A DNA stretch of 60,300 nt from a bacterium (GTDB taxonomy: Bacteria > Vulcanimicrobiota > Xenobia > Xenobiales > JADMJV01): assembly GCA_030149525.1 (NCBI GenBank), contig JASBRJ010000039.1, positions 1 to 60,300 on the forward strand. The letters are read 5' to 3'. Positions 8,653 to 24,666 of this stretch are shown one piece after another. Under the pieces are notes generated by a model. That model was not told the origin of the DNA, did not search any database, and was given only the letters and a program-made list of their open reading frames with translations. How positions within the stretch are numbered: position 1 is the first letter of the stretch; every line of letters begins with the position of its first letter. The position numbers and the translations under genes are program-made.

Positions 8653-9372
8653 ATGTTTTGTGAAAGAACGAGCCTGGCCGGTGCTCCGGTTTTGTTATGG
8701 GGACAGGGCGCTCCGTACCGGGGAACGGTATTTCTTTACCACGGGCTAGGAGCTTCCAAGGAAACCAACGAGAAAGAACTTCGTGCCCTGGCCAGTCGAG
8801 GCTTTCTCGCCATCGGCGTGGATGCGGTGAGTCACGGAGACCGTCGTTGTCCCGATTTCGAGAGTCGGATGAGCGGACCCGACAGTCATCAAGAATTTCT
8901 TACTATGGTGAGAGCTACCGCTGATGAGCTTCCCTTGCTTTGGAGCGATCTTCGCTCCAAATCGGGAGGTCTTGGCGAATTGGGTGTCTGTGGCATTTCC
9001 ATGGGCGGCTGCATCACGTTCGCAGCCGCCTGCAATAGCACTCTGATCAAGGCGGCAGCTCCCATTCTAGGCTCACCCGACTGGAGCCTAGGTGGGCTCC
9101 GACCTACCTCAAAGGAGTGGTGGCAGGACAGCCCTCATCACACTCCGGAGTGGTTCCCGCCGGTGGCTCTTCTGGTTCAGAACGCCGGGTTGGATGTCAA
9201 CGTTCCGCCCCAGCCGGCTCGTGATTTTATTCGAGAAGCTTCCCGCTACTACGGTCACGCTCAGGAGCGTCTGAAATACTTCGAATACCCGGACTCCGAT
9301 CACTTCATGAACGCCATGGACTGGGAAATCTTATGGGCCCGCGTTGTGGGTTGGTTTGAGCGGTTTCTCTAG
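8653..9372 (+). CDS. Alpha/beta hydrolase (dienelactone hydrolase/acyl-esterase type)
   Basis: A 239-residue hydrolase with the oxyanion strand YHGLGAS (about 29-35), the nucleophile elbow GISMGG with Ser116, an Asp-containing segment QNAGLDVNVP, and the late His in the DSDHF motif near residue 223. This makes a complete Ser/Asp/His triad. No signal peptide, so cytoplasmic. The layout resembles the YitV/dienelactone hydrolase group, which acts on esters; the substrate is not evident. It follows the TolB-like gene in the same direction and could be co-transcribed. Confidence 0.87.
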   Translation: MFCERTSLAGAPVLLWGQGAPYRGTVFLYHGLGASKETNEKELRALASRGFLAIGVDAVSHGDRRCPDFESRMSGPDSHQEFLTMVRATADELPLLWSDLRSKSGGLGELGVCGISMGGCITFAAACNSTLIKAAAPILGSPDWSLGGLRPTSKEWWQDSPHHTPEWFPPVALLVQNAGLDVNVPPQPARDFIREASRYYGHAQERLKYFEYPDSDHFMNAMDWEILWARVVGWFERFL

Positions 9373-10381: not shown

Positions 10382-11113
10382 ATGGGCCGCCGGAAAGGTA
10401 GTAAATTGCGAAAAACCGGTTTTTTTCTTCTTGTAGGATTTTTATTGATGTCTCTCCCCGCCTGGGGTCAGGAGATGGTGGCTTCCGAGATCAACGAAGC
10501 GGACCTTTTGAAGACCAAGCTCAAGCGTCTGGTCGTGGGGAATCAAGGGGCCATTTTGAAGGTATGGAAGGCCGATGGTGATGCCGAGCCTGCCTACTAC
10601 CGCGGCCTCGATGACAGAGATACGGCCCCCTACAGCAAAGAAGACCAGGAAGCCCTCACCGCAAGTCTTGAAATGACGCGTGAGGAGCTGGAAAAGGCAG
10701 CCATCGAAGTGATGGACGGTTATGATACCCTTCCTAAAAAGAACGCCATTGCGTTTCTGGGAATGATCTACTCCATCGCAGACGACTCCCCCCTTGAGCC
10801 CTCCGACGAAGTTGATGCCAGGGTGAAAGCATTCCTTCTGACCCGACTCAAAGAAGATACGAGTGTTATTATGCGCCGTCAGGCGTGCCTGGCACTGGCC
10901 GTTTGTGATAAGGCCGACGACGAGGTGATCGAAGCCGTTCTCAACTTCTACTCGAGTAGCGAGAATCTTTGGGAAACCTTCCCTGTCCAACAGTTCTTCG
11001 AGTACCACTCCAACGAAATCAAATCCAATGCGGCGTTCCCCCAGATTCGGGAAAGAGCTGCGGCGGTCAACAGTCTCTACACCAACAACATTCTCAACTA
11101 TCTCGACCAATAA
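10382..11113 (+). CDS. Secreted hypothetical protein, helical repeats
   Basis: The product of 243 residues has a clear Sec signal peptide: basic MGRRKGSKLRK, a hydrophobic core, then cleavage near PAWGQ. I use the ATG at 10382 because it gives this clean signal; GTG codons at 10361 and 10364 are possible. The mature part is acidic and helical, with ALAVCDKADDEVIEAVLNFY recalling a HEAT-type helical pair, but no family is assigned. A strong terminator follows at 11170. Confidence 0.75.
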   Translation: MGRRKGSKLRKTGFFLLVGFLLMSLPAWGQEMVASEINEADLLKTKLKRLVVGNQGAILKVWKADGDAEPAYYRGLDDRDTAPYSKEDQEALTASLEMTREELEKAAIEVMDGYDTLPKKNAIAFLGMIYSIADDSPLEPSDEVDARVKAFLLTRLKEDTSVIMRRQACLALAVCDKADDEVIEAVLNFYSSSENLWETFPVQQFFEYHSNEIKSNAAFPQIRERAAAVNSLYTNNILNYLDQ

Positions 11114-11129
11114 TCGACAAATGAAAAGC

Positions 11130-11153
11130 TTAACAGGATGTTCGTCCTGTTAA
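11130..11153. other. Perfect 9-bp inverted repeat
   Basis: TTAACAGGA and TCCTGTTAA flank a six-base loop (TGTTCG). It lies 16 bp after the stop of the secreted unknown and 16 bp before the true terminator. There is no T run, so it may protect the 3' end of the mRNA or be a protein site; the role is not shown. Confidence 0.5.
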
Positions 11154-11169
11154 TCCATCAACACCAGTT

Positions 11170-11197
11170 GCCGCCCCGTCACGGGGGCGGCTTTTTT
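11170..11197 (+). terminator. Rho-independent terminator
   Basis: A GC-rich stem (GCCGCCCC...GGGGGCGGC, loop around GTCAC) is followed by six T residues. It ends the transcript of the secreted protein gene that stops at 11113. Confidence 0.92.
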
Positions 11198-11202
11198 GTA
11201 AT

Positions 11203-11235
11203 AAAAAAGCCCTCACCGTTTCGGGCAGAGGGCTT
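11203..11235 (-). terminator. Rho-independent terminator for the convergent lipoprotein gene
   Basis: Read on the minus strand, AAGCCCTC and GAGGGCTT form a stem followed by a T run (six A residues at 11203-11208 on the plus strand). It lies 30 bp past the stop of the DUF4397 gene and back to back with the plus-strand terminator. Confidence 0.9.
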
Positions 11236-11264
11236 AGGCTCGGTCCGAGTTCTGCATCAGCCCG

Positions 11265-12146
11265 CTAGGCGTCGTTGGCTTGCAGTGAAATGACCGACTG
11301 ATTTCCGTTGTTGGCATCGTCTACCAGAACAAGGAGAGCCGTTACGCCGGTGGCCTGGTGACAAACGATAACGGTGAGATTGTTACCGGCGGCCGAAAAA
11401 AGGTTGCCCAGAGAACTGACGATGGGCGATGCGGTTCCCTGAGCCTGGGTGAAGATTCTAGAGAAAGCATCGTTGCCAACGGCATCCAAGAATTGGGCGC
11501 GCAGCGAGGGACTATTTTGTAGGTCGGTAGCGGCTACCGCCTCGTAGGGACCCGCGGCGTTCTGAGCGACGGGGCCAAGGAGGCGTGTTCCGGCCTGGTT
11601 CTCAAGTTGCACCGGGTTACGGAATTCTTCAATGTTCACGAGTCGCGCCCTCAAAGTGTTCGCAACCGTCACGACGTCGTCGGTGACAAACAGGACATCA
11701 GTGTCACCGGGGAGTTGGGCGGCGCGAATTTCTTCAGATCGGGCCGCCACCTTGGTGGCGGGACGAATGATGAAGCTCGCATATTGATTCGCAGTGGTGG
11801 TGACCTGGCGTTCCAACACGGTCGTGGTGGCCTGGCCCGCTGCCACAGTAGCGGTTGCTATTCTTACGGTATGTTGACCGGGATTGAGCTCAATGTATTG
11901 AGTTGACTCAAGGCCGTCGAGATCGCCATCGACCTGCGCGCCGTCAATGGACACGATAAAGTTTTGAGTTGTACCGACACCGTTGACGATTCTAAGGTGA
12001 CTCTTGGTCGTAGGGACCACAGGCGGGGGCACAAGAACCTGGGTGTTGCCCTGTTGTCCCGAAGGACCCTCGGTAAAAGAGCTGCCGCATCCAATAGCCA
12101 GCAGCGTCAGTGTGGCAAGCATGAGTTGCCGATAATATTTCTTCAT
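11265..12146 (-). CDS. DUF4397 domain lipoprotein
   Basis: Envelope lipoprotein of 293 residues. The signal peptide ends in the lipobox LAIGC (Cys at residue 20), so it should be lipidated. After a Pro/Gly linker, a DUF4397-type beta domain starts at about residue 48 (LRIVNGVGTTQNFIVSIDG...) with the family's pattern of a short strand, a small carrier phrase and ELNPGQHTVRI. The C-terminal half (RARLVNIEEF onward) looks like a second divergent copy. AGGAG lies before the ATG. The function of DUF4397 is not known. Confidence 0.85.
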   Translation of the reverse strand: MKKYYRQLMLATLTLLAIGCGSSFTEGPSGQQGNTQVLVPPPVVPTTKSHLRIVNGVGTTQNFIVSIDGAQVDGDLDGLESTQYIELNPGQHTVRIATATVAAGQATTTVLERQVTTTANQYASFIIRPATKVAARSEEIRAAQLPGDTDVLFVTDDVVTVANTLRARLVNIEEFRNPVQLENQAGTRLLGPVAQNAAGPYEAVAATDLQNSPSLRAQFLDAVGNDAFSRIFTQAQGTASPIVSSLGNLFSAAGNNLTVIVCHQATGVTALLVLVDDANNGNQSVISLQANDA

Positions 12147-12263
12147 AATGTCTCCTGATTCGGAAGTTACTCAGAACCGTTACCTTCTGTTGTTGAGGAG
12201 ACAGCAACCCCACAGTTCTTAGCCCGATTTTTTAAGCCGAATGAGCCCTCCAGTTCTCAGGAA

Positions 12264-12289
12264 TAAAAAAAAGTCCCTTCTCGGGACTC
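12264..12289 (-). terminator. Rho-independent terminator
   Basis: Minus-strand hairpin AGTCCC/GGGACT with a GAGAA loop followed by eight T residues. It directly follows the stop of the HPr-kinase-like gene. Confidence 0.9.
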
Positions 12290-13021
12290 TCATTGGACCG
12301 GCTTTTTCGCACTACCGGCCGCACGAAAGCCTTCTTGAAGTATCCTGCCTACTGTCTTGATTGCCGAGTCTCGACGACCCGACAGACGCAATCTCGTCCC
12401 CTCGCACAGTTTGGCCAGTTTGGGCAAGATTTCGGCGCCTTCATAGGGCCGGGCAGTCGTCTGAATCAGGTTCAATAAGGCAGCCCCAGGGGTCTGTTCT
12501 TGAACGTCCCAGACTTCCCCGGGTTCGTAGTTAAGGTTGAGCACGGTCGACACGGGGAGTCCACTCCTCGGAAGCTCGCTAGAGGGGTAGGGTAAGAGAT
12601 TACCGTCAGGGTCAACAACCGCAAGAAATTGAGACAAGCGTGAGGAACCTTCTCTGGCGAAGGCGTCGGCTAGAAACGTTTTTCCGGTAAAGGTGTTACC
12701 GGCTATCAAGATGGTCTCGCCCGAGGGGGTGACGACCGCGTCGCCCCTTAGAAAAATCGGTCCTTCGGTGGCACCGGATACGGTTTCGTGAATTCTGGAT
12801 GAGAGAATCTCTGCAAGCAGAGGGAGAGTCTGGTCGGACGACAACTTTATCTCCCCTTCAAACAGATCGAAGAACGACTCCTTAGCTTTAAGAGAGAACG
12901 CCGCCTCTATCACGGGCGCTTCCTCGGTGACCAATTCAAAACCCTTCTCTTTAAGGAGGGGTACAATCGAACTCGGGCCCTCTACGGAGATGTATTTTCC
13001 ATAGCACTTCACTACAAGCAT
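12290..13021 (-). CDS. HPr-kinase-like P-loop protein, probably degenerate
   Basis: A 243-residue protein with the fold signature of HPr-kinase-related proteins. A strand FLRGDAVVTPSGETILIAG runs into the Walker A loop GNTFTGKT (108-115), then SRLSQFLAVVDPDGNLLPYP. In active relatives this last segment carries a catalytic Asp (LSDE); here it reads LSQF. The His often seen before the P-loop strand is Arg92. So nucleotide binding looks intact but phosphotransfer is doubtful. It is divergent from the MauE-thioredoxin gene; such kinase-like proteins occur near peptide-modification genes, but no precursor peptide is seen here. The ATG at 13021 is the only good start. Confidence 0.65.
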   Translation of the reverse strand: MLVVKCYGKYISVEGPSSIVPLLKEKGFELVTEEAPVIEAAFSLKAKESFFDLFEGEIKLSSDQTLPLLAEILSSRIHETVSGATEGPIFLRGDAVVTPSGETILIAGNTFTGKTFLADAFAREGSSRLSQFLAVVDPDGNLLPYPSSELPRSGLPVSTVLNLNYEPGEVWDVQEQTPGAALLNLIQTTARPYEGAEILPKLAKLCEGTRLRLSGRRDSAIKTVGRILQEGFRAAGSAKKPVQ

Positions 13022-13067
13022 GCGGCGGCAGGGTTCTCAACTCTTGAACCAAAACCTGGTTCCGCCC

Positions 13068-14063
13068 ATGGACCTTCACTTTTCAATCGTCATAAATAGC
13101 GTCTGGGAGCAAACGGCTGCCAACCACGCATCGCACTTAAACGGAGTTTTGAGAGTCGGACTAGGGCTCGTTACCCTTGTTTCCGGTGTTGGAAAACTTC
13201 TGGATCCCGCCGGGAGTCGACAGGCCATGAGCGACTTCGGTGTTCCCTCAAAGTACGTTGTTTCGGCCACCAGGGCGCTTCCGATCATCGAACTCATCTT
13301 GAGCGCTACTATCATCCTTGATGCCACGAGTCGCTTGTCCTCGCTCGCCCTGGCATCGCTCTTCACCTTTTTTAGCCTTAGTATCGCCAATCTGCTTCGG
13401 CAAGACAAGGCGCCCCCGTGCAACTGCTTTGGTGCCGTTCACTCCGATGAAGTCTCCAAGTGGACCCTCTTGAGATCGATCTCATTGGCTGCTTTGGCAT
13501 TCCTCGTTCACCGCTTACCTACCTACGCCCTAACGCCCGGCTTCAAGAGCGCAACCCTTGCAGCCACTCTTTTTGGGGCTGTGAGCTATGCAGTCGTCCT
13601 GGGCGTGAGACGACGACGGCGGTTGACGGCGTCTAAGCCCGCAAAAAGACTTTCCAAGGGTCAACGCGTTCCTGCTACACGTTTATGGGACGGACGATGG
13701 ATCGAGGAGCTTCTCGCTGAGGATAGGCCCACTCTCCTTCTGCTCACGTCCACGGACTGCGGCCACTGCGTCTTGTTGAAGCAGTGGCTCAATCCGTGGC
13801 GCGATAGGGTTCAGGAGAACCTGCACATCGTGGAGTTGCAAACTCTAGACTCGAAACAGTTCAACGATCCTCCACAAATCGAAGGCTTGGGTCGCTCCGT
13901 TTTCTACTTTAGCCCCAAGGAGGCAGGGCGCTTCAAATCGGTCACTCCCGGAGCCTTCCTGGTGGATGAAACCGGAACGTTGTTAGCGACACCGGTTGCT
14001 GGACGCCTAGAAATAGAAGCGTTGGTCAGGCTGACACTCCGACAGACTGCCGTCGCTACTTGA
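13068..14063 (+). CDS. MauE/DoxX-type membrane protein with C-terminal thioredoxin-like domain (CGHC)
   Basis: Four to five hydrophobic segments make the N-terminal half, which resembles MauE: a helix with LVSGVGKLLDPAGS, then a PPCNCFG cysteine pair typical of that family. The C-terminal half is a thioredoxin-like fold with the redox motif DCGHC (about residues 230-234) in a stretch reading LLLLTSTDCGHCVLL, and a cis-Pro-type loop near VTPGAFLVD. It is thus likely a membrane disulfide carrier passing electrons between its halves. I place the start at the ATG at 13068; an in-frame ATG at 13020 would overlap the start of the divergent gene. The 3' end overlaps the convergent gene by 8 bp. Confidence 0.8.
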   Translation: MDLHFSIVINSVWEQTAANHASHLNGVLRVGLGLVTLVSGVGKLLDPAGSRQAMSDFGVPSKYVVSATRALPIIELILSATIILDATSRLSSLALASLFTFFSLSIANLLRQDKAPPCNCFGAVHSDEVSKWTLLRSISLAALAFLVHRLPTYALTPGFKSATLAATLFGAVSYAVVLGVRRRRRLTASKPAKRLSKGQRVPATRLWDGRWIEELLAEDRPTLLLLTSTDCGHCVLLKQWLNPWRDRVQENLHIVELQTLDSKQFNDPPQIEGLGRSVFYFSPKEAGRFKSVTPGAFLVDETGTLLATPVAGRLEIEALVRLTLRQTAVAT

Positions 14064-14553
14064 GGTAGCGAGTGACGTCTCTGAAGCGGCGGTCGTCAGG
14101 CGACGGATTGTAAGTGAGTTCTTTGATGACCAGCGTTGCTCCATCTCCCGTGTTCACAGTCAACTCCTCTTGGGTTTGGCCGCCGAAGGCCCGTTCTTTC
14201 TCAAGATAGCTGTCCAGAGATTCCAGGAAATAGTGGGGCAGCCGAGGGTTGTCCAATCGGTAGAAGTAGGATACCCCTGCACGGGTGACCAGGACTTTAT
14301 CGGGTCGCTTGGACTTTTGATATTGATAGACGGTCACACCGTCGCGGTCCTTGCGCTTCATTAACTTGAAGTCGTCAGAGCAGTAATAAACAGCGGAAAA
14401 TTCCCCTCCGGCATCCTGACCTGTCAGCATGGCAGCATAACTTTGCCCAGCGGCTGGAGCGTCATTCAGGTCGGTTATCCCCGTTTGAGCGAGACCTGAA
14501 TGGAACAAGACCAGGGTAAAGCACGTGCAGAGGAAAGTAGCAAGACGAGACAT
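14056..14553 (-). CDS. Secreted hypothetical protein
   Basis: A 165-residue exported protein of unknown function. The ATG at 14553 has AAGGAG upstream and gives a signal peptide (MSRLATFLCTCF..., cleavage near GLAQ). A longer frame would run into the inverted-repeat element and is rejected. The mature part is a mixed alpha/beta domain with a pattern of strands (FSAVYYCSDDF, VTVYQYQ, KVLVTRAGVSYFYRLD). That pattern recalls outer-membrane lipoprotein-sorting-type proteins, but no family is assigned. Confidence 0.72.
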   Translation of the reverse strand: MSRLATFLCTCFTLVLFHSGLAQTGITDLNDAPAAGQSYAAMLTGQDAGGEFSAVYYCSDDFKLMKRKDRDGVTVYQYQKSKRPDKVLVTRAGVSYFYRLDNPRLPHYFLESLDSYLEKERAFGGQTQEELTVNTGDGATLVIKELTYNPSPDDRRFRDVTRYLK

Positions 14554-14592
14554 ACAGCACTCCTTCGTTTTCTCGGGAGGCGCCCGCCGTGA

Positions 14593-14761
14593 TCTAGAGC
14601 CTGTCACTATTCAGTCTTTGGAGCCCAGAATTGTCCATTTCCGCGCTCTGGAGGCGTCTTTTCGTTAAAATACATCCAGTATTCCGCTCTCAAATCCGCC
14701 TCCATAGCACAAAAATGTCCTAATTATGGGCTCCAAAGACTGAATAGTGACAGGCTCTAGA
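14593..14761. repeat. Near-palindromic MITE-like element with 34-bp perfect inverted repeats
   Basis: The 34-bp arms at 14593-14626 and 14728-14761 are perfect inverted copies (outer end TCTAGAGCCTGTCACTATTC). Inside them the two halves stay related: for example CTCTGGAGGCGTC near 14650 pairs with an inverted copy near 14695, so the whole 169 bp could fold into one long hairpin. The bases outside both arms also look alike for about 10 bp. It fills most of the 400-bp space between two divergent genes, and no open frame lies inside it. This form fits a non-autonomous transposable element; no transposase is in the window. Confidence 0.75.
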
Positions 14762-14955
14762 GTCAGACGCGCCCCGTTGGGTTTCGTGTCCTTGAATTCC
14801 TACTCCGCGCTGAGTCGCGGAGAAATCTCTCTACTTACCAATATAATAAGTCCGTTTTGGATTTTCAAGACTCTTTTTCGAGTCTTGGGGTCAATCGTCA
14901 CTTACAGGGCCTGGCCTGGGTCTGCTAGGGTTTTTCCGAGGAAGAGGGTAGCTCT
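14762..14955 (+). other. Upstream region of the six-gene operon
   Basis: About 190 bp between the inverted-repeat element and the first gene of the operon. A short open frame here merely starts inside the repeat. An AGAGGGTAG Shine-Dalgarno-like stretch lies about six bases before the ATG at 14956. No promoter could be placed with confidence. Confidence 0.4.
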
Positions 14956-17724
14956 ATGATAGTGGACACCGAGTGTAGAGAAAAAAAGGTCGTGGAGATC
15001 ATCGAGGGTCTCTCTGCCGAACTCAATCCCCACCAGCCACCGGCTGTTGGGCCCACCACTCACCTGGAGTGGGATCTTGGTTTAGGGAGCATTGAACGGC
15101 ACGAATTGCTGTTGCGTCTGGAGCGTGGTCTGGGGGAAAGTCTCTCCAGTCAGGGTGTCTTTCAGGCGAGCACCGTGTCCGATCTGCTCAACCTTACTCC
15201 GGGCATTGAGAAAGAGCGAAACATTCGTGTGTTGGACCTGGCCGAGGGGGAAGTCCCGCCTCATCCGGCTCACGCGACGAATTTGATCGAAGCTCTTTTG
15301 TATCAGGCGGAAAATCAGCCCACACGCAAGACCCTTCACTTCATAGAGGAAGGTGACACGGTCTGTCAGTGGGCTTATCCCGACCTCCTGGCGGCAGCCC
15401 AAAAGGCGGCTGCGGGCCTTGCCGGACTTGGTGTGAAGCGCGGTGACCGGGTCGGTGTTATGCTCCCTTCCGGCCCCGATTACGTGGCCGCTTTCTACGG
15501 AATTCTGTGGTTGGGCGCAGTCCCGGTGCCCCTCTATCCACCCTTTCGTTTGGATCAATTGGAAGACTACGTCCAGAGACAGGCTGCCATCCTCAAGCTT
15601 GCAGGGGTGGAAATTCTTATCAGCTTCGACCGGGCCAAGCCGGTCATGCCGCTCCTCAAGTTACACAGCCCGGGTCTGAAGAAAATCGTCACGGTGGGCG
15701 AGTTGGAGGGGGAGGCTCCTCCTTACAGCGTCCATCCCCAGGCCTTAATCCAATTCACCTCGGGAAGTACAGGTCTTCCAAAGGGGGTGGTCCTGACCCA
15801 CACCAACTTGATCCATAATATTCGTGGCTACGGATTTGGGATGAATCTTACCCCGCGCGACGTGACCATCAGTTGGCTACCCCTTTATCATGATATGGGT
15901 CTCATCGGCACCATGCTGGGCAGCATTTATCACGGACAGCCTCTCGCTCTTATGGGACCTCAAGACTTTTTGGCTCGACCGTCCCGATGGCTTTGGGCCG
16001 TTCACCAGTATCGGGGGACAGTTTCCCCTGCTCCTAACTTCGCCTACGAGATTTGCGCCCGAAAGATTCCCGACGAAGAACTTGAGGGCTTGGACCTTTC
16101 CAGCTGGCGCATCGCTTTGAACGGAGCCGAAGCTGTTCGTCCTGAAACTCTGGAGCGGTTCAGTGAGAGATTTGCTCCCTACGGCTTCAAACCCGAGGCC
16201 CATTTCCCGGCCTACGGATTGGCTGAGGCCAGCCTAGCTGTGACCTTTCCGCCTCCCGGCCGTGGTCCGCTGGTGGAGACTTTGAGTCGTGAGACGTTGG
16301 AATCCGAAGGCGTGGTCGCAGCCTGTGGTGCGGGGGAGACTCCTATGACCCTGGTGGCCTGCGGACGGCCTTTGCCCGACATGGAAGTTCGCATCGTAGA
16401 CAATCACGGCAAGGTTTTAGAAGATCGTCGCAGAGGTTTAGTGGAGTTTCGGGGGCCTTCGAGTCTTGAGAGCTACTACAACAATCCCGAAGCGACTGCG
16501 GCGGCCAAAGATGCCGATGGTTGGGTGAAGACCGGCGATCTCGGCTACCTCTCCGAGGGTGAACTCTATCTCACCGGGCGTATCAAGGACATAATCATCA
16601 AAGCCGGTCGCAACATTCAGGCCGAAGACGTGGAAGATATCGTGGCTTCGGTCAAGGGTGTTCGGCGCGGATGCGTGGCCGCTTTCGGTGTGGAAGATGA
16701 TAAGGAAGGTACCGAACTTCTGGTTATCGTGGCTGAGAGTCGCCTTAAAGACGAGGGGGCCAAGAACGAACTGGCCGGCAAGATCGAGAAGGAAGTTGCC
16801 CGTCGTCTTGGGGTTCCACCGGATCGGGTGGACGTGGTGAAGTCTCATACGGTTCCCAAGACGCCCAGTGGAAAGATACGCCGCTCCGAGTGTAAGAAGC
16901 GTTGGATTGACGGAAGTCTCAAGGCCTCAGGCGGTACCATCGCTCAGCTTCAAAAGGTTGTTTTTCATGGTCTCTCCCAACGGCTGAAGAAGCTGGTGGG
17001 AATGCCTCGTCAACTGGTGCGATCAGCCTGGTGTTACGCCTGTCTTGGAACCTCGATCATGGCTCCAACGGTGTTCGCCCTGATCTCAAAGAGTGGGGCC
17101 CAGAAATTGATGGGGCCGGTGGCAAGATTCTACCTCAAGTTAGTGGGAGTCCATCTGGACGTGCGAGGCGAAGCCTCCTTTTCCGAGCCTTGCATTGTGG
17201 TTTGTAATCACTGCAGCACCCTGGATGCTCTCGTGCTCACCGCCACCTGGAAATCGCCACTTACTTTTCTGGTGGCTCCCTGGGTCACCGAGCATCCCCT
17301 GCTGAAGCGTCTCATCGCCCGAACCGGTCACATTCCAGTTCATCGAGGTGACCCGGAAGTGGCGGAACAGCAAGAAAAAGAGTTCGTGGAGCGTCTGGCT
17401 CGTGGAGAGAGTCTGGCGATCTTCCCCGAAGGCGGTATTGAAGTCACACCAGGGCTTCGCCCCTTTGCCCTGGGAGCTTTCCGACTGGCAGCCCAGAACG
17501 GCGTGCCGATTATCCCGGTGGCCCTCACCGGGACCAGAAAAGCCCAGCCTCATCCCAAGATGATTCCTTTTCCCACTCCCGTGCAGGCCATCGTGGGTTC
17601 TCCTTTGTACGCTGAGGGAGACGAATGGCAGCATGTGCTGGAGCTTTCCAATCAGTCCCGAGAGTGGATGGCCGAGTATTGTGGCGACCCCCTTTCTCAC
17701 CGTCGCCTGAGAAGAAACGACTGA
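14956..17724 (+). CDS. Three-domain fusion: acyl carrier protein, fatty acyl-AMP ligase, PlsC-type acyltransferase
   Basis: A 922-residue cytoplasmic or membrane-associated enzyme. Residues 1-85 are an acyl carrier domain with the phosphopantetheine site in DLGLGSIE (Ser45). Residues about 105-650 are an acyl-adenylate-forming domain of the fatty acyl-AMP ligase type: P-loop FTSGSTGLPKG at 267-277, a YGLAEAS segment, KTGDLGYL, and a late Lys in TPSGKIRR. Residues about 690-910 are a PlsC acyltransferase with NHCSTLD (His752, Asp757) and FPEGG. The order suggests that a fatty acid is activated as acyl-AMP, loaded on the carrier in cis, and moved to an acceptor by the PlsC domain. It leads the operon; the next gene begins 4 bp after its stop. 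Confidence 0.9.
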   Translation: MIVDTECREKKVVEIIEGLSAELNPHQPPAVGPTTHLEWDLGLGSIERHELLLRLERGLGESLSSQGVFQASTVSDLLNLTPGIEKERNIRVLDLAEGEVPPHPAHATNLIEALLYQAENQPTRKTLHFIEEGDTVCQWAYPDLLAAAQKAAAGLAGLGVKRGDRVGVMLPSGPDYVAAFYGILWLGAVPVPLYPPFRLDQLEDYVQRQAAILKLAGVEILISFDRAKPVMPLLKLHSPGLKKIVTVGELEGEAPPYSVHPQALIQFTSGSTGLPKGVVLTHTNLIHNIRGYGFGMNLTPRDVTISWLPLYHDMGLIGTMLGSIYHGQPLALMGPQDFLARPSRWLWAVHQYRGTVSPAPNFAYEICARKIPDEELEGLDLSSWRIALNGAEAVRPETLERFSERFAPYGFKPEAHFPAYGLAEASLAVTFPPPGRGPLVETLSRETLESEGVVAACGAGETPMTLVACGRPLPDMEVRIVDNHGKVLEDRRRGLVEFRGPSSLESYYNNPEATAAAKDADGWVKTGDLGYLSEGELYLTGRIKDIIIKAGRNIQAEDVEDIVASVKGVRRGCVAAFGVEDDKEGTELLVIVAESRLKDEGAKNELAGKIEKEVARRLGVPPDRVDVVKSHTVPKTPSGKIRRSECKKRWIDGSLKASGGTIAQLQKVVFHGLSQRLKKLVGMPRQLVRSAWCYACLGTSIMAPTVFALISKSGAQKLMGPVARFYLKLVGVHLDVRGEASFSEPCIVVCNHCSTLDALVLTATWKSPLTFLVAPWVTEHPLLKRLIARTGHIPVHRGDPEVAEQQEKEFVERLARGESLAIFPEGGIEVTPGLRPFALGAFRLAAQNGVPIIPVALTGTRKAQPHPKMIPFPTPVQAIVGSPLYAEGDEWQHVLELSNQSREWMAEYCGDPLSHRRLRRND

Positions 17725-17728
17725 GACC

Positions 17729-19102
17729 ATGGTAAAGAAACCCCGACTGACTCTAGTCCATCCATGCGTTGGGCGGCATCGCAACGAGCCCTATTTAAGG
17801 AGTTGGCAGATGGAGCCCCTGGCGCCCGCTTTGCTCTCGGCTCTCACTCCCGACACCTGGGAGAAATCGTTCTACGACGATCGCCTGGAGTTGATCGACT
17901 ACGATCATCCCACCGATCTTGTGGCTATCTCGGTGGAAACCTACACCGCGCGTCGCGCCTATCAGATCGCCAGTGAGTTTCGTAAGCGTGGCGTGCCGGT
18001 GGTCATGGGCGGCTTTCACCCCACCCTTGTTCCCGAGGAGGCCGGAGAGTTTGCCGAGGCCGTGGTTGTGGGTGAGGCTGAGACGGTGTGGGAAAAGCTC
18101 CTCACCGATTTCGAGAACGGACGACTGGAAAAATACTATCGTTCAGCCAGTGGCCGGGACCGCGCTCAATTGCAGGCGGTGCGCCCCGACCGAAGCCTGT
18201 TCAAAGGGAAGCGCTATCTCCCCATTCGTCTAGTGGAGGCCGGGCGAGGCTGTCATTTTTCCTGTCGCTTCTGCGCTATCGCAAGCTTCTTTGAGAGCAC
18301 TCAGTTGAGGCGCCCTGCTGAAGCTATCGTGGCCGAACTCGAAGAGCTTCGAAAGAACGTGATTTTCTTTGTGGACGACAATGTGACGTCTCGTATGAAC
18401 GAGGCCAAGGAACTGTTTCGAAAGCTGATTCCCCTAAAGCTTCGTTGGATCGGTCAGGCCAGTATCACCGCCGCCTGGGATGAAGAGTTCTTGCAACTTC
18501 TGAAAGCCAGCGGTTGTCAAGGTCTTCTGGTGGGTTTCGAGAGCCTGGAGCCTGAGGTGATCGAGAGCATGGGAAAGAACTTCAACATGGCCAAAGGGGG
18601 CTACGGTCCGGCCATCGCTCAGTTTCGAAAATACGGAATCCGTCTCTACGGAACGTTCATCATCGGCTACGACGGCGACTCCGAGCAAACGGTGGAGCGG
18701 GCCCTTGAGTTTGCTCTGCAAGAACAGTTCTTTCTGGCCGCCTTCAATCACCTCACCCCTTTCCCCGCCACGCCTTTATATCGGGAGTTGGAAGCCGATG
18801 AGCGCCTGATCTATCCCCAATGGTGGCTGAGTGAGAAGTATCGCTACGGCGAGGTGCCGTTCAAGCCGATCGGCTTAGAGCGGGAGAAGATCCAGGAACT
18901 TTGCCATTGGGCCAGGCGCCGATTTTATGGCACCTCTGGCTTATGGCAGAGGGCCAAAGCCGCCACCTGGAACCTTCGTTCCCCTTTCATGACCTGGCAG
19001 TTTTTCGCTATCAACGCCATGATGGGTCGAGATGTGTCCGGCCGTGACGGACTGCCCCTGGGGGATGCGGGTTGGGATGGGAAACTTCTCCCTGTTTCAT
19101 GA
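17729..19102 (+). CDS. B12-binding-domain radical SAM enzyme
   Basis: A 457-residue radical SAM protein. The N-terminal 150 residues form a cobalamin-binding-type Rossmann domain (DLVAISVETYTARRAY, VVMGGFHPTLVPEEA, VVVGEAE). The radical SAM core holds the cluster motif GCHFSCRFC (Cys175, Cys179, Cys182). The C-terminal part has segments typical of the BchE/HpnJ-like group (LLVGFESLEPEVI, LYGTFIIGYDGD, LTPFPATPLYREL). Such enzymes often methylate, cyclise or rearrange unreactive carbons, in lipids and pigments among others. Within this operon a lipid-type substrate is a reasonable guess. The stop overlaps the next start (ATGA). Confidence 0.9.
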   Translation: MVKKPRLTLVHPCVGRHRNEPYLRSWQMEPLAPALLSALTPDTWEKSFYDDRLELIDYDHPTDLVAISVETYTARRAYQIASEFRKRGVPVVMGGFHPTLVPEEAGEFAEAVVVGEAETVWEKLLTDFENGRLEKYYRSASGRDRAQLQAVRPDRSLFKGKRYLPIRLVEAGRGCHFSCRFCAIASFFESTQLRRPAEAIVAELEELRKNVIFFVDDNVTSRMNEAKELFRKLIPLKLRWIGQASITAAWDEEFLQLLKASGCQGLLVGFESLEPEVIESMGKNFNMAKGGYGPAIAQFRKYGIRLYGTFIIGYDGDSEQTVERALEFALQEQFFLAAFNHLTPFPATPLYRELEADERLIYPQWWLSEKYRYGEVPFKPIGLEREKIQELCHWARRRFYGTSGLWQRAKAATWNLRSPFMTWQFFAINAMMGRDVSGRDGLPLGDAGWDGKLLPVS

Positions 19103-20112
19103 TTTTTCGTGAGGCTCAAGAGAAAGACGATGCTCAACTGACTGAGCTTTTCGCCAAGCCCATGCCGGGGGATTTGAGTCTCTCTTTCACTCGGACGCCC
19201 GGCTACCTGGAGTCGTGCGCCAGGTTTGGTCCTCGACGCAGGGTTCTTTCGGCGGTTGAGGGTGACGAGGTGTTGGCTCTTTGCAGTTTTTTTCTGTGGC
19301 CTTACTCTGTTGTCGGGAAGCGGGTGGAAGTCTGGACGGTGGCCGATTTCAGAGCTTTGGACAGCGCGGCCCATCGCAGTGTGACCGGTCGAGGTTGGAA
19401 GGCCCTCCGGGGCTTATTAGAAGGGCGACCAGCGATGATAAGCGTTGTCGACGACAATCCCATTTCCGGTCGCTTGTTCGCAAAGCGTCGGCGGGGATGG
19501 CCGGAGCTTCGTCCGGTTGCTCGGCTCCAGACTCTTATGTTTCCTTTGCTGGGAGAGTATCAGGATGAGATAGGTGTGGTTTGCCCGGCAGCGGAGAGGC
19601 TTTGTGAGTTTTTGAATGTGGATGAGCGCGAGTTGGCTCCCCATATTTTGCCCGGCCATCTTGGCCGCGTGGCGCCGGATCCGGAAGATTTTCTGGGGGT
19701 GACCGACGGGGCCGGGCTTCGTGCTTGTGGGGCTCTCTGGGACCCTTGTCGGTTTCGCCAGACCAGAGTGGCGGATTATCGAGGTTTTTACGCCTCTTTA
19801 CGACGATGGTCTCAGAAGCTGGGACTGGATGTGATGCCGGAACCGGGGAGTAAAGTGGCTGTCGGTTTTGCCTCCTTTCTTCGGGGCGAAGGAGAAGCGG
19901 TGGAGCGAGTGGCTCGCGCTCTATGTCATCGGGCCAGGCGGCGGGGATTGTCGTTTCTGGTGTGGGGAGGGGATGCTCGTGAGAAGCCGCCCTTCCCTCG
20001 GCACTGGCCTCGTTTCAATTATCCCAGCACACTTTATCAACTGGTTTGGGAGGGCGACGACAATCTCGAGGTCGGTTCAGGTCTCTGTGGATACGAGGTG
20101 GCCTGGTTATGA
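19099..20112 (+). CDS. GNAT-like acyltransferase, substrate unknown
   Basis: A 337-residue protein starting at the ATG of an ATGA overlap with the previous gene. The N-terminus (FREAQEKDDAQLTELF...) has the opening strand and helix of GNAT N-acyltransferases, and the following segments (LALCSFFLWPYSV, VWTVADFRAL, ISVVDDNPISGRLF) fit the acyl-CoA-binding half. A second, less clear domain of similar size follows from about residue 170. Translational coupling with the radical SAM gene and the next gene suggests a shared pathway. GNAT assignment is by pattern only. Confidence 0.65.
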   Translation: MIFREAQEKDDAQLTELFAKPMPGDLSLSFTRTPGYLESCARFGPRRRVLSAVEGDEVLALCSFFLWPYSVVGKRVEVWTVADFRALDSAAHRSVTGRGWKALRGLLEGRPAMISVVDDNPISGRLFAKRRRGWPELRPVARLQTLMFPLLGEYQDEIGVVCPAAERLCEFLNVDERELAPHILPGHLGRVAPDPEDFLGVTDGAGLRACGALWDPCRFRQTRVADYRGFYASLRRWSQKLGLDVMPEPGSKVAVGFASFLRGEGEAVERVARALCHRARRRGLSFLVWGGDAREKPPFPRHWPRFNYPSTLYQLVWEGDDNLEVGSGLCGYEVAWL

Positions 20113-20789
20113 GGACGCGAGTCGATCGTCCGGAGGATTTGTCCACTGAGGATGTCGATGAACTCTACCGGTTTTTCTGTGGAAGTTTTGAGGCGGAGCG
20201 AGTCGGCTTTGAGTTGGACCTACGGGAGAAAGATCGGGTCTTGAGAGTCTGGGGTGACTCGGGCTTAGCCGCATTCTCCACTCTTCTTCTCTTTCGTCCG
20301 GAACCTCGCTACAGAGTCTTCTACTCAGGGGATACTTTGACGCGCGGGGAGGCCAGATTGGGTCATCATTTGCCCTCGCTCTGGGCCCGATATGTTTTCC
20401 AGGAAGTGGCCCCCGAAAAGGGGGTAGAGGACTACTGGCTGCTGCTGTGCTCAGGATTTCGGACTTACCGCATTCTGCCCACATTTTTTCAACGCTTCTA
20501 TCCCGGCCCCGAGGGGTCATTGGAGCTTCAGGGGCTTCGAGACGATTGGGCTTCCGTACGGTTCGGCGAGGCCTATTCCAAGGGAATCGTGAGACCGCGA
20601 TTTGCCACAGTCTTGAAAGATCCCGAGCCTCCGGCGCGCCTTGTGGGCGACCCCCATGTACGGTTCTTTCGGGAAGCTAACCCCGGCTATGCCCGAGGTG
20701 AGGAGTTGGTTTGTTTGGTCTCACTGGACCCGAACTATCTTAAGCCTGCAGGTCGGAGATTGGCCTTCTCCAAGACCACGGTATCATGA
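20109..20789 (+). CDS. Acyltransferase-like unknown in the lipid operon
   Basis: A 226-residue soluble protein, started at the ATG of an ATGA overlap (a longer upstream frame lies inside the previous gene). It is not clearly a known family. The run of segments (VLRVWGDSGLAAFSTLLLF, RVFYSGDTLTRGEARL, DYWLLLCSGFRTYRILPTFF) resembles the core of distant GNAT-type proteins, with a strand, a turn, then a helix. It is coupled to genes on both sides by 4-bp overlaps, so it is expected to act in the same pathway as the GH3-like enzyme that follows. Confidence 0.65.
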   Translation: MRTRVDRPEDLSTEDVDELYRFFCGSFEAERVGFELDLREKDRVLRVWGDSGLAAFSTLLLFRPEPRYRVFYSGDTLTRGEARLGHHLPSLWARYVFQEVAPEKGVEDYWLLLCSGFRTYRILPTFFQRFYPGPEGSLELQGLRDDWASVRFGEAYSKGIVRPRFATVLKDPEPPARLVGDPHVRFFREANPGYARGEELVCLVSLDPNYLKPAGRRLAFSKTTVS

Positions 20790-22204
20790 ACCTTTGGGCG
20801 GCTCTCGGTAACAGGCTCTGGCAGCTGGTCAGTTGGCCGGAGTATCGGCGTTTCGGGGCGGGCTTGGGAGACTTGCACGGGGAGCAGTTGTCCTGTTTGG
20901 CGCGGGTGCTCGGCAGAGCGGAATCTTCGGTTTACGGGCTCCGCCACGGTTTGAAGAGAGGCTGGAGCTACTCAAAATTTGCCGACGAAGTTCCTATTAT
21001 CACCTACGATGAGATCTTGCCCTATCTCAAGTTGACCCACGGTCTTATCACGGAAACTGTTCGAGTGTGGGAGCCCACCGGTGGGTCCACAGGTGGATGC
21101 AAGTGGATACCCTGGACAGGCGGTTTGCAACAGGAGTTTCGGAGCGCCGTTTCGGCCTGGATTTTCGATCTCTACCGGCAGTTCCCCGAGGTGAGAAACG
21201 GTCGCAGTTACTGGCAGCTCACTCCCACCGCCGACGTACAGCCTCCCGATTGGTTGAGCGGAGCAACCACTGGTTTCGAAAGTGACGGTGACTACCTGGG
21301 TGCGGCGGGACGCTTGCTTGAGCGCGCGGTGCTTGTGTCGGTTGACAAGAGCCCACAGAGGTTCTGGGAGCGCACCGTAGAGCGATTGGTGACCACGACC
21401 GACCTTCGCCTCATCTCCTGTTGGAGTCCGACCTTCCTGAAGCTCTTGAAGTCCAAGTGCGAAGAGCTTGTGGGTTGTTGGACACCCGAACAGTGGTGGC
21501 CGTCTCTTGGAGTGGTGAGTTGCTGGACCGACGGGCCCTCCTTGCCTTATCGATCAGTTCTGGCGGAGATTTTTCCCACTGTCACAGTCCAGGGCAAAGG
21601 GTTGCTCTCCACCGAGGCTGTCACGACCATCCCCTTTCGAGGTCACTATCCGTTGGCTTACCGAAGTCACTTTTTTGAATTTCAAGACGACTACGGGGGA
21701 TTGGTCCCGGCCTGGGGCGTGGAGAACGGGAAGACCTACGAAGTGATTCAAAGCACCTCGGGTGGGCTGCTCCGTTATCGCAGTGGTGACCGGGTCCGGG
21801 TGACCGGTTTTCTGGGTACGGTGCCCTGTTTTGAGTTTTCCAATCGGAGTGGCGTGGTCGATCGTTTTGGGGAGAAGTTATCTCTTGATTTTCTGCAGAA
21901 GGTGATCGGTTCTTGTGGGGTCGAGGCGGCTCTGGGTTATGAAGATGGAAGTTACGTCCTGTTTCTCAGCCCCATGTCGGAGTCGAGGGCTCGGGAGCTG
22001 TGGGATCAGGTGAATGAGGCGCTGGAGTCGGTCTACACCTATCGAGACTGTCTCGCTCTGGAGCAGTTGGGTCGGTTACGGTGCTTTGTTTTGAGGAGTG
22101 AGGACTGCTGGGAGTTCGCCCGAGAAGACTACGGTCGGCGAAAATTGAATGCGGTCTTGCCGGTGGGAAAATGGAGTCAGATTTTTGGAGGTTCTTTTCT
22201 ATGA
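20786..22204 (+). CDS. GH3-family acyl-adenylating enzyme
   Basis: A 472-residue protein of the GH3 family, known best from plants as acyl-acid amido synthetases that join carboxylic acids to amino acids through an acyl-AMP. The ATP/AMP-binding loop reads EPTGGSTGGCKWIPWT (about residues 95-110). A central LSTEAVTTIPF segment and YRSGDRVRVTGF are at the positions of the family's adenylate-contacting motifs. Bacterial GH3 proteins exist, but most have no assigned product. The gene is coupled by ATGA to both neighbours. It gives this operon a second adenylate-forming enzyme besides the fusion at 14956. Confidence 0.85.
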   Translation: MNLWAALGNRLWQLVSWPEYRRFGAGLGDLHGEQLSCLARVLGRAESSVYGLRHGLKRGWSYSKFADEVPIITYDEILPYLKLTHGLITETVRVWEPTGGSTGGCKWIPWTGGLQQEFRSAVSAWIFDLYRQFPEVRNGRSYWQLTPTADVQPPDWLSGATTGFESDGDYLGAAGRLLERAVLVSVDKSPQRFWERTVERLVTTTDLRLISCWSPTFLKLLKSKCEELVGCWTPEQWWPSLGVVSCWTDGPSLPYRSVLAEIFPTVTVQGKGLLSTEAVTTIPFRGHYPLAYRSHFFEFQDDYGGLVPAWGVENGKTYEVIQSTSGGLLRYRSGDRVRVTGFLGTVPCFEFSNRSGVVDRFGEKLSLDFLQKVIGSCGVEAALGYEDGSYVLFLSPMSESRARELWDQVNEALESVYTYRDCLALEQLGRLRCFVLRSEDCWEFAREDYGRRKLNAVLPVGKWSQIFGGSFL

Positions 22205-22479
22205 GTGAGGTCAGACTGGAAGCCACGGTTTCTGGAAGAGTTCAGGGGGTCTCTTTTCGTTACTACACTCAGCGGACGGCCTTGTCTTTAGGTGTTGTGG
22301 GTTGGGTGCGCAATGAGTTCAACGGTGATGTTCGGTTAGTGGCTGAGGGAGAGCGGGAGAAGTTGGAAGAGTTGCTGGCGTTTGTTCATGAGGGGCCGTC
22401 GTATGCGCGAGTCAGTGGGGTGGAGTTTGAGTGGGGGGAAGCCACGGGGGAGTTTGGGCGGTTTCAGATCATCCATTGA
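22201..22479 (+). CDS. Acylphosphatase
   Basis: A 92-residue acylphosphatase, the normal size. It has the phosphate loop GRVQGVSFR with the catalytic Arg, and the catalytic Asn in GWVRNEFNG. The enzyme hydrolyses carboxyl-phosphate bonds. The start is the ATG within an ATGA overlap with the GH3 gene. Its place as last gene of a lipid-like operon is unusual and may mean that it removes an acyl-phosphate side product, or that it was simply captured there. Confidence 0.93.
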   Translation: MSEVRLEATVSGRVQGVSFRYYTQRTALSLGVVGWVRNEFNGDVRLVAEGEREKLEELLAFVHEGPSYARVSGVEFEWGEATGEFGRFQIIH

Positions 22480-23260: not shown

Positions 23261-24580
23261 CTAAGCCGCAATAATCTCAGCTCCACAGGTATAGAACTTA
23301 TCCAGGTTATAGCCGTAGAATCGATACCCCAAATTGGCCGCCATAGCCTTGAGCAGCATCCGCCGACTCCCCACCAGGCGCCGGGCGATGTTGGCCCAAC
23401 TGTAGGTGTTTTTCCAGGCCGTTTCCACCCCGAGGCGCAGCTGTTCCGCGCTCATAGCGGCCGGTTGATAGACCACATGCTGGCCGTCGTAGAGTTCCCA
23501 GTTGGTGGTAAGTATTCGGTTATCCGAGGCCAGCCGGCGGTGGAGCGGTGTGCCGGGGAAAGGAGTGAGGATGGAGTAACGAGGGAGATCGATCTTGTGC
23601 TTCACCACGAACTCGGTGACCCGGTCGAAGATGTCCGGATTGTCGGCATCAAAACCGAAGACGAAGGTTCCCATGATGGCGATTCCGGCGTCGTGGAGTT
23701 TTCGAATGACCAGGTCGTAACTTTGATATGTATTGAACTTCTTGGCCGATTCAGCCAGGGACTCCATAGAAACCGTCTCAAAACCCACCAGCAAACCGCG
23801 GCACCCACTTTTACGAGCAAGGGCCAACAGTTCGTCGTCCCAGGCGATCTTGGTGGTGGCAAGGCCTGCCCAGCGTATCTTAAGTGGCGCCAACTCTCGA
23901 AATAAAGCCTTTGCATAATCTTCGTCGGCGATAAGATTGAGATCGAGAAAGATGACCGATTTAGCCCCCATCATCTCGATGTCTTCAATCACTTCGCGAA
24001 TGGGCTTCTGGCGCGGCCTTCCCCAGGCGCTCGGCACCACACAGAAGCGACAGTGATGAATGCATCCACGGGTGGCCTCCACGGTGTATGGAGTGAAATA
24101 CCTGTCCAGACCGATAAGGTCCCGGCGCGGTCGGGGGCGGCCGCCCAGGTCGAGGTTGGGGTCTTGCGTATAGCGAGGCTTCAGATCGCCTGCTTTGAAA
24201 TCTCGAAGCAGTTGAGGCCAGGTGTCTTCGGCGTACCCGGTGACTACGCAGTCGGCGTGTTGCTGGGCTTCATCAGGGCAAAGAGTTGGGTGAACTCCGC
24301 CTAACACTACCTTGATGCCGCGGTTTCTCAACTGTCCGGCCAGTTCATAACTTCGGTTGGCGGTCCCGGTGATAGCAGATATTCCCACCAGGTCGGCCTG
24401 CAAGTCGCAAGGGACTTCCTCGATGCCCTCGTCGAAGAGCGCAAGCTCGATATCAAGTTCCGGCGGCACCAGAGCAGCCAGAGTCGACAGAGTCAGCGGG
24501 GCATACCTCAGCGATTTGCCGAAGATGCCGGAACGGTGACGGTAGAGTGGTCCTCGTGGACTCAACAGTGCGACTCTCAT
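23261..24580 (-). CDS. B12-binding-domain radical SAM enzyme (second copy in the window)
   Basis: A 439-residue radical SAM protein with an N-terminal cobalamin-binding-type domain (MRVALLSPRG start, VLGGVHPTLCPDEA) and the cluster motif GCIHHCRFC (Cys173, Cys177, Cys180). Later blocks (LLVGFETVSMESL, IMGTFVFGFDADN, LTPFPGTPLHRRL) match those of the copy at 17729, so the two are paralogues of one subfamily. I start at the ATG at 24580 because it gives the usual N-terminus; the longer frame runs into the divergent gene. Substrate unknown. Confidence 0.9.
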   Translation of the reverse strand: MRVALLSPRGPLYRHRSGIFGKSLRYAPLTLSTLAALVPPELDIELALFDEGIEEVPCDLQADLVGISAITGTANRSYELAGQLRNRGIKVVLGGVHPTLCPDEAQQHADCVVTGYAEDTWPQLLRDFKAGDLKPRYTQDPNLDLGGRPRPRRDLIGLDRYFTPYTVEATRGCIHHCRFCVVPSAWGRPRQKPIREVIEDIEMMGAKSVIFLDLNLIADEDYAKALFRELAPLKIRWAGLATTKIAWDDELLALARKSGCRGLLVGFETVSMESLAESAKKFNTYQSYDLVIRKLHDAGIAIMGTFVFGFDADNPDIFDRVTEFVVKHKIDLPRYSILTPFPGTPLHRRLASDNRILTTNWELYDGQHVVYQPAAMSAEQLRLGVETAWKNTYSWANIARRLVGSRRMLLKAMAANLGYRFYGYNLDKFYTCGAEIIAA

Positions 24581-24666
24581 CCTCAACAGTTGGGCAAAGA
24601 CCGGAAGCTGTCCTCGATCTGCAGCACAGTTTTCTCGGAGGCGGCCTTCACTCAAGCGCCGAAGAC

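Follow-up and report, generated by a model that had tools for sequence, protein, structure and literature searches.

A gene core of GH3, GNAT and radical SAM enzymes recurring across bacterial phyla, with a possible role in making an acyl-amide or amino-lipid

Six tightly packed genes in an uncultured bacterium raise the question of whether they form one pathway and, if so, what it makes. The window analysed (60,300 nucleotides) covers one contig entirely; the draft genome it comes from measures 8.27 Mb, with 97% completeness and 4.5% contamination. Those relatives of the gene cluster that carry names are Candidatus Eremiobacterota (Vulcanimicrobiota) records, which makes this the probable phylum. 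In the window six open reading frames, A to F, lie head to tail on the forward strand (14956-22479). The arrangement described in an initial annotation was confirmed in all its coordinates, i.e. ATGA overlaps at the B/C, C/D, D/E and E/F junctions and a 4-bp gap between A and B. Codon-position GC lies in the same range in all six genes, the middle position being lowest, and the signature motifs of A, B, E and F, and of a further gene termed here radical-SAM 2, are intact. The features are as follows.

Gene A, 14956-17724, forward strand: ACP, fatty-acyl-AMP ligase and PlsC domains; a local member outside the conserved core
Gene B, 17729-19102, forward strand: B12-binding radical SAM enzyme; core
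Gene C, 19099-20112, forward strand: tandem GNAT, its fold predicted to be that of N-myristoyltransferase; core, though missing from almost all cyanobacteria
Gene D, 20109-20789, forward strand: single-domain GNAT; the most widely shared member
Gene E, 20786-22204, forward strand: enzyme of the GH3 acyl-adenylating amido-synthetase type; core
Gene F, 22201-22479, forward strand: acylphosphatase; probably a passenger
Radical-SAM 2, 23261-24655, reverse strand: second B12-binding radical SAM enzyme; core elsewhere, here detached and convergent

Upstream of the six genes the window holds a fusion of a MauE/DoxX membrane domain with a thioredoxin-like domain (13020-14063), adjoined by a divergent gene (12290-13021, reverse strand) with a weak ATPase-like match.

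Which genes belong together was judged from neighbourhoods in other genomes. A scan of a collection of species genomes with an alignment of D gave 339 relatives, of which the best 80 were kept, so that the proportions given here describe the loci most like D rather than all carriers; many of these loci are metagenome bins whose single taxon labels may be wrong, although no single locus is decisive for the breadth across phyla. A neighbour confined to one lineage was not counted as core, and reverse-strand reading frame families were dropped from the neighbourhood clustering as shadows of real genes. Among the 39 non-cyanobacterial loci in the best 80, GH3 and C genes are each present in 38, a B gene in 35 and a radical-SAM 2 gene in 31, and several of the loci lacking some core gene are short contigs. 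All five could be placed in 27 loci, and 26 of these keep the order radical-SAM 2-B-C-D-E on one strand; neighbouring genes mostly overlap or stand a few bases apart, although some loci have 4-5 kb inserted between two of them. Across the five families, pairwise distances are correlated (r = 0.59-0.89, a level reached in none of 999 permutations), implying largely one common history, to which host relatedness contributes. Such loci occur in more than ten phyla, including Acidobacteriota, Verrucomicrobiota, Chloroflexota, Deinococcota, Gemmatimonadota, Vulcanimicrobiota, Thermodesulfobacteriota, Bacillota, WOR-3, Synergistota, Melainabacteria, Lentisphaerota and Pseudomonadota. Carriers of the gene set outside metagenome bins include Chthoniobacter flavus Ellin428 and strains of Calothrix and Nostoc. 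Of 17 carrier genomes, 15 have a single GH3 gene.

The true membership is thus a five-gene core of radical-SAM 2, B, C, D and E, and not the six genes A to F that had been put forward as the pathway, since relatives have A at other sites, F is not regularly found beside the cluster and radical-SAM 2 belongs to the set. Scattering of the genes in relatives, which the initial annotation had named as grounds against its claim of novelty, is found for A and F only, the core keeping its order. It is the window that departs from the arrangement of its relatives, in that radical-SAM 2, directly upstream of B in other genomes, lies here on the opposite strand beyond F and a Uma2 gene, with a likely start at the ATG at 24580. 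In Eremiobacterota relatives (L010-L014) the cluster also holds a cytochrome P450 gene; L010-L013 have one more B12-radical-SAM gene, the third, and most of them also encode small proteins of YHS-domain and Yippee-like type.

Both radical SAM proteins combine the radical SAM and B12-binding domains (PF04055 and PF02310; 60 and 34 bits for B, 59 and 53 bits for radical-SAM 2) with a CxxxCxxC cluster motif, CHFSCRFC in B and CIHHCRFC in radical-SAM 2, that is retained in 36 of 36 relatives of the former and 28 of 28 of the latter. They are assigned on this basis to the B12-radical-SAM enzymes, B12 binding itself being a prediction; a DxHxxG motif is absent from both. Compared with copies in other phyla, B is mostly 50-58% identical and radical-SAM 2 42-64% identical. 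Neither is recognised as one of the named B12-radical-SAM equivalogs in NCBIfam (HpnJ, BchE, PhpK and others), B reaching at best 89 bits where the cut-off is 600, and radical-SAM 2 at best 83 bits where it is 481.

C and D themselves have no Pfam or NCBIfam match, but 18 of 41 C relatives match Acetyltransf_1 and 22 of 55 D relatives match Acetyltransf_9. These matches to relatives, together with the folds of confident AF2 models (pLDDT 91 for C and 93.6 for D), place both proteins, as predicted members, in the GNAT superfamily. The description of C as GNAT-like was therefore right, and of the description of D as an acyltransferase-like unknown the acyltransferase part holds, D being the second GNAT. 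For the C model, all 50 PDB fold matches listed are N-myristoyltransferases (E about 1e-12 to 1e-10, TM 0.59-0.64, about 10% identity). At the level of sequence families C has no N-myristoyltransferase match, only two of its 41 relatives match NMT_C (best E 0.16), and a C profile found no match among PDB sequences. N-Myristoyltransferase is a long-chain N-acyltransferase, and the predicted fold suggests that C may likewise transfer long acyl chains. The D model matches GNATs in the PDB (best E 5e-5, TM about 0.4) at a general GNAT level with no close structural relative; a search of PDB sequences with a D profile returned a chance match only (E 0.2).

E matches GH3 (PF03321, 58.0 bits) and GH3_M (PF23571, 54.7 bits) well above the cut-off of 23.6, the profile of its family finds the structures of plant GH3 enzymes (E 1e-30), and nucleotide-binding motifs I (EPTGGSTGGCK) and III (GGLLRYRSGD) are present, as read from the alignment, simple motif patterns having matched only some relatives. 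GH3 enzymes adenylate acids and form amides; those of plants conjugate hormones and small acids. In a tree of 63 relatives E groups with the Eremiobacterota copies (support 91/93) on the longest branch of all, 1.99, in contrast to B, which stays 55-58% identical to most copies. Given this branch and a score of 19.2 bits against a cut-off of 620 for the model of the bacterial GH3 enzyme OlsH (NCBIfam NF052613), E may have changed substrate, differing in this even from its relatives.

Taking substrates, order of steps and class of product from the gene content and order, the conservation, the motifs, the predicted folds and the two architectures of the locus, we infer, with a probability of about one half, that the product of the core, by an uncharacterised route, is an acyl-amide or amino-lipid, the most economical candidate. 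E would adenylate a carboxylate, with fatty and hydroxy-fatty acids the likeliest, and join it to an amine or hydroxyl acceptor; D and C would form the other acyl bond or bonds, C being the likelier long-chain N-acyltransferase; and the two B12-radical-SAM enzymes would modify an unactivated carbon without oxygen, a role for which cyanobacteria would use Rieske and diiron enzymes instead. In this genome A may feed acyl groups into the pathway. The reading draws on the GH3 enzyme, whose family has a bacterial member that makes N-acyl ornithine (PMC12493201), the N-myristoyltransferase-like fold of C, the second GNAT and neighbours in relatives that are of lipid type, i.e. fatty acid desaturase, PAP2 and fatty acid hydroxylase genes, and on the same grounds the suggestion of an acyl or lipid pathway, perhaps to an acyl-amide, is upheld as probable. 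Against it, neither GH3 nor GNAT enzymes are specific to lipids, the GH3 enzymes of plants use small acids, most cyanobacteria have no C, and the structural matches of D stay at the general GNAT level.

The cyanobacterial loci provide a second architecture. In the 41 that hold D among the best 80 of 339, the GH3 gene is mostly several kb downstream, typically about 8 kb, and the interval contains up to three Rieske proteins, a ferritin-like protein, a ferredoxin, a fatty acid hydroxylase (a weak OlsE match, 54 bits against a cut-off of 475) and a hexapeptide transferase; a CylC/AurF-like diiron protein is also present, its AurF-like match of 19 bits being below the Pfam cut-off. In eight cyanobacterial genomes with D and GH3, C is absent from seven, so C is not universally needed, and a close B orthologue is absent from all eight (best 32% identity, versus 53-57%). 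Planktothricoides is mixed, combining C and a desaturase with D, GH3 and a Rieske protein. Elsewhere in the genome analysed here, contig C136 (4360-6640) has adjacent genes resembling those for Rieske proteins, fatty acid desaturases and PAP2; of these, the desaturase and PAP2 types often neighbour the radical-SAM version in other genomes. The two modules, radical-SAM and Rieske/diiron, may do equivalent chemistry, much as chlorophyll synthesis has an oxygen-independent and an oxygen-dependent enzyme in the BchE/AcsF pair. We tentatively suggest, at clearly less than even odds, that more than ten phyla make a single, uncharacterised lipid class from a D and GH3 core that they share, the tailoring modules being exchangeable, with B12-radical-SAM enzymes for chemistry that does not need oxygen and Rieske/diiron enzymes in cyanobacteria. 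By gene content the cyanobacterial loci match, and are probably the same as, the 'Rieske-containing' CylC-homologue clusters, of which PMC8406957 counts 36, without a known natural product.

A different product has to be considered, namely a secreted small molecule, e.g. an N-acyl amino acid signal, a siderophore-like compound or another natural product, rather than a membrane lipid. The patchy distribution of the set would fit: D and GH3 are found in the same 8 Eremiobacterota genomes (149 searched for D, 98 for GH3), and the cluster occurs in 20 of 194 genomes sampled from the cyanobacterial phylum, whose version is treated among natural-product clusters in PMC8406957. A complete version is also carried by a mobilizable IncF plasmid of Citrobacter portucalensis (NZ_CP134684.1, 51417-63512), comprising D, GH3, radical-SAM 2, B, C, two further radical SAM genes, PAP2, a gene of unknown function, a fifth radical SAM gene and a desaturase; no other near copy was found in plasmid or E. 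coli collections. Acinetobacter baumannii (NZ_CP104448.1, positions 11021-15903 of the locus) has divergent homologues of D, GH3 and C, the last two separated by an outer-membrane efflux gene. Upstream are genes for MFS and HlyD proteins, and an amidase and a LuxR-type regulator are encoded nearby; no radical SAM gene was recognised in this locus. NZ_CP104448.1 is listed as a 4-Mb plasmid and looks like a mislabelled chromosome. It is chiefly this association with efflux genes that keeps the secreted product in play, at odds we put at well under even. Neighbourhood clustering recognised no transporter or PKS/NRPS among the annotated families that recur across phyla, the annotated recurrent neighbours being lipid-type and radical SAM enzymes, which argues against the secreted product.

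The proposal that all six genes form one pathway, with A and F as essential steps, draws on the ATGA coupling from B to F and the 4-bp A/B gap, on the intact acyl-loading and acyl-transfer domains of A, and on PlsC-like genes near the cluster in four Eremiobacterota relatives, where they lie on the strand opposite GH3. A comprises an ACP (residues 27-79; PF00550, 26.7 bits, cut-off 20.8), an AMP-binding domain of the fatty-acyl-AMP ligase type (about 108-655) and a PlsC-type acyltransferase (735-857), as assigned with Pfam and NCBIfam, with the motifs GLGS, TSGSTGLPK, NHCSTLD (of H-x4-D type) and FPEG intact. However, its full-length orthologues (49-52% identical), in relatives G001, G002 (two copies), G004, G005 and G006, and its paralogue are on contigs other than that of the cluster, adjoined by no core genes, and G006 has A while lacking D and GH3. 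In relatives outside Eremiobacterota the GH3 gene is present in the cluster with no A-type ligase/carrier gene, and hence the pairing of two adenylate-forming enzymes with one carrier, from which a single acylated product had been suggested, is not a defining feature. F is a clear acylphosphatase (PF00708, 87 bits; RVQGVSFR), but none was found beside the cluster in L010-L016 and L017-L096, other than one in a cyanobacterial locus (L056), and F is probably an incidental passenger. A single six-gene pathway is accordingly very improbable; A and F may still be co-transcribed with the core and contribute locally in this genome. The second ACP-ligase-PlsC gene of this genome (contig C232, 59463-62108) is 45% identical to A; short genes upstream of it appear pilin-like by their N-termini alone. 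Also improbable, if slightly less so, is that E stands in for OlsH in a variant of the OlsH/OlsI ornithine-lipid pathway. E is a GH3 enzyme with a weak match to the model for OlsH, which makes N-acyl ornithine (PMC12493201), and the cyanobacterial hydroxylase has its low-scoring OlsE match. Yet the 19.2 bits of E fall far short of the OlsH cut-off, and the described OlsH pathway has no radical SAM or GNAT partner. Neither an OlsI-type alpha/beta hydrolase nor an OlsG methyltransferase is found among the six genes and radical-SAM 2, the alpha/beta hydrolase at 8653-9372 lying upstream, separated from A by about 5.6 kb in which there are other genes.

The only reports found to be relevant to the gene set were PMC8406957 and PMC12493201, and the view that no described pathway has this exact set agrees with our finding no characterised pathway in the libraries and papers searched. 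Of other candidates, PMC8841776, in which GH3 denotes a glycoside hydrolase, and PMC13345540 are not relevant to the cluster, and a possible match to the alkyldiamine lipids of Truepera found no support in the literature search. The set is an orphan, and from a cluster in one uncultured genome it extends to a cross-phylum gene set with a defined core and two architectures. Its product may turn out to be either a natural product of scattered occurrence or a lipid of a widespread class, one whose biosynthesis would so far be undescribed.

The nearest characterised system is the OlsH/OlsI(/OlsG) ornithine-lipid pathway of Singulisphaera acidiphila (PMC12493201), which resembles the window cluster in having a GH3-family enzyme and an acyltransferase gene in a compact operon and in forming a fatty-acid amide bond, as predicted here. 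Of its defining features, an OlsH-level score for the GH3 enzyme and the OlsI and OlsG genes are absent here, where two B12-radical-SAM enzymes and two GNATs are present instead. E shares its fold family and recognisable motifs I and III with the plant GH3 acyl-acid amido synthetases, e.g. JAR1 and GH3.12, but the sequence similarity is distant and the plant substrates are hormones or small acids. In the same way the predicted tandem-GNAT fold of C resembles that of N-myristoyltransferases, from which C differs in its low identity and in having no sequence-level match in the PDB search. The Rieske/CylC-homologue clusters, as characterised in PMC8406957 by two to four Rieske proteins with a CylC homologue, resemble the cyanobacterial loci in gene content (D, GH3, Rieske, CylC/AurF-like diiron and fatty acid hydroxylase genes) and in occurring in similar cyanobacteria. 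No such Rieske and CylC-type genes are among the six genes and radical-SAM 2; by contrast with the cyanobacterial clusters, the window has radical SAM enzymes and C in their place. The Rieske/CylC-homologue clusters would gain from this comparison a GH3-GNAT core and radical-SAM counterparts, and related products are predicted for the two.
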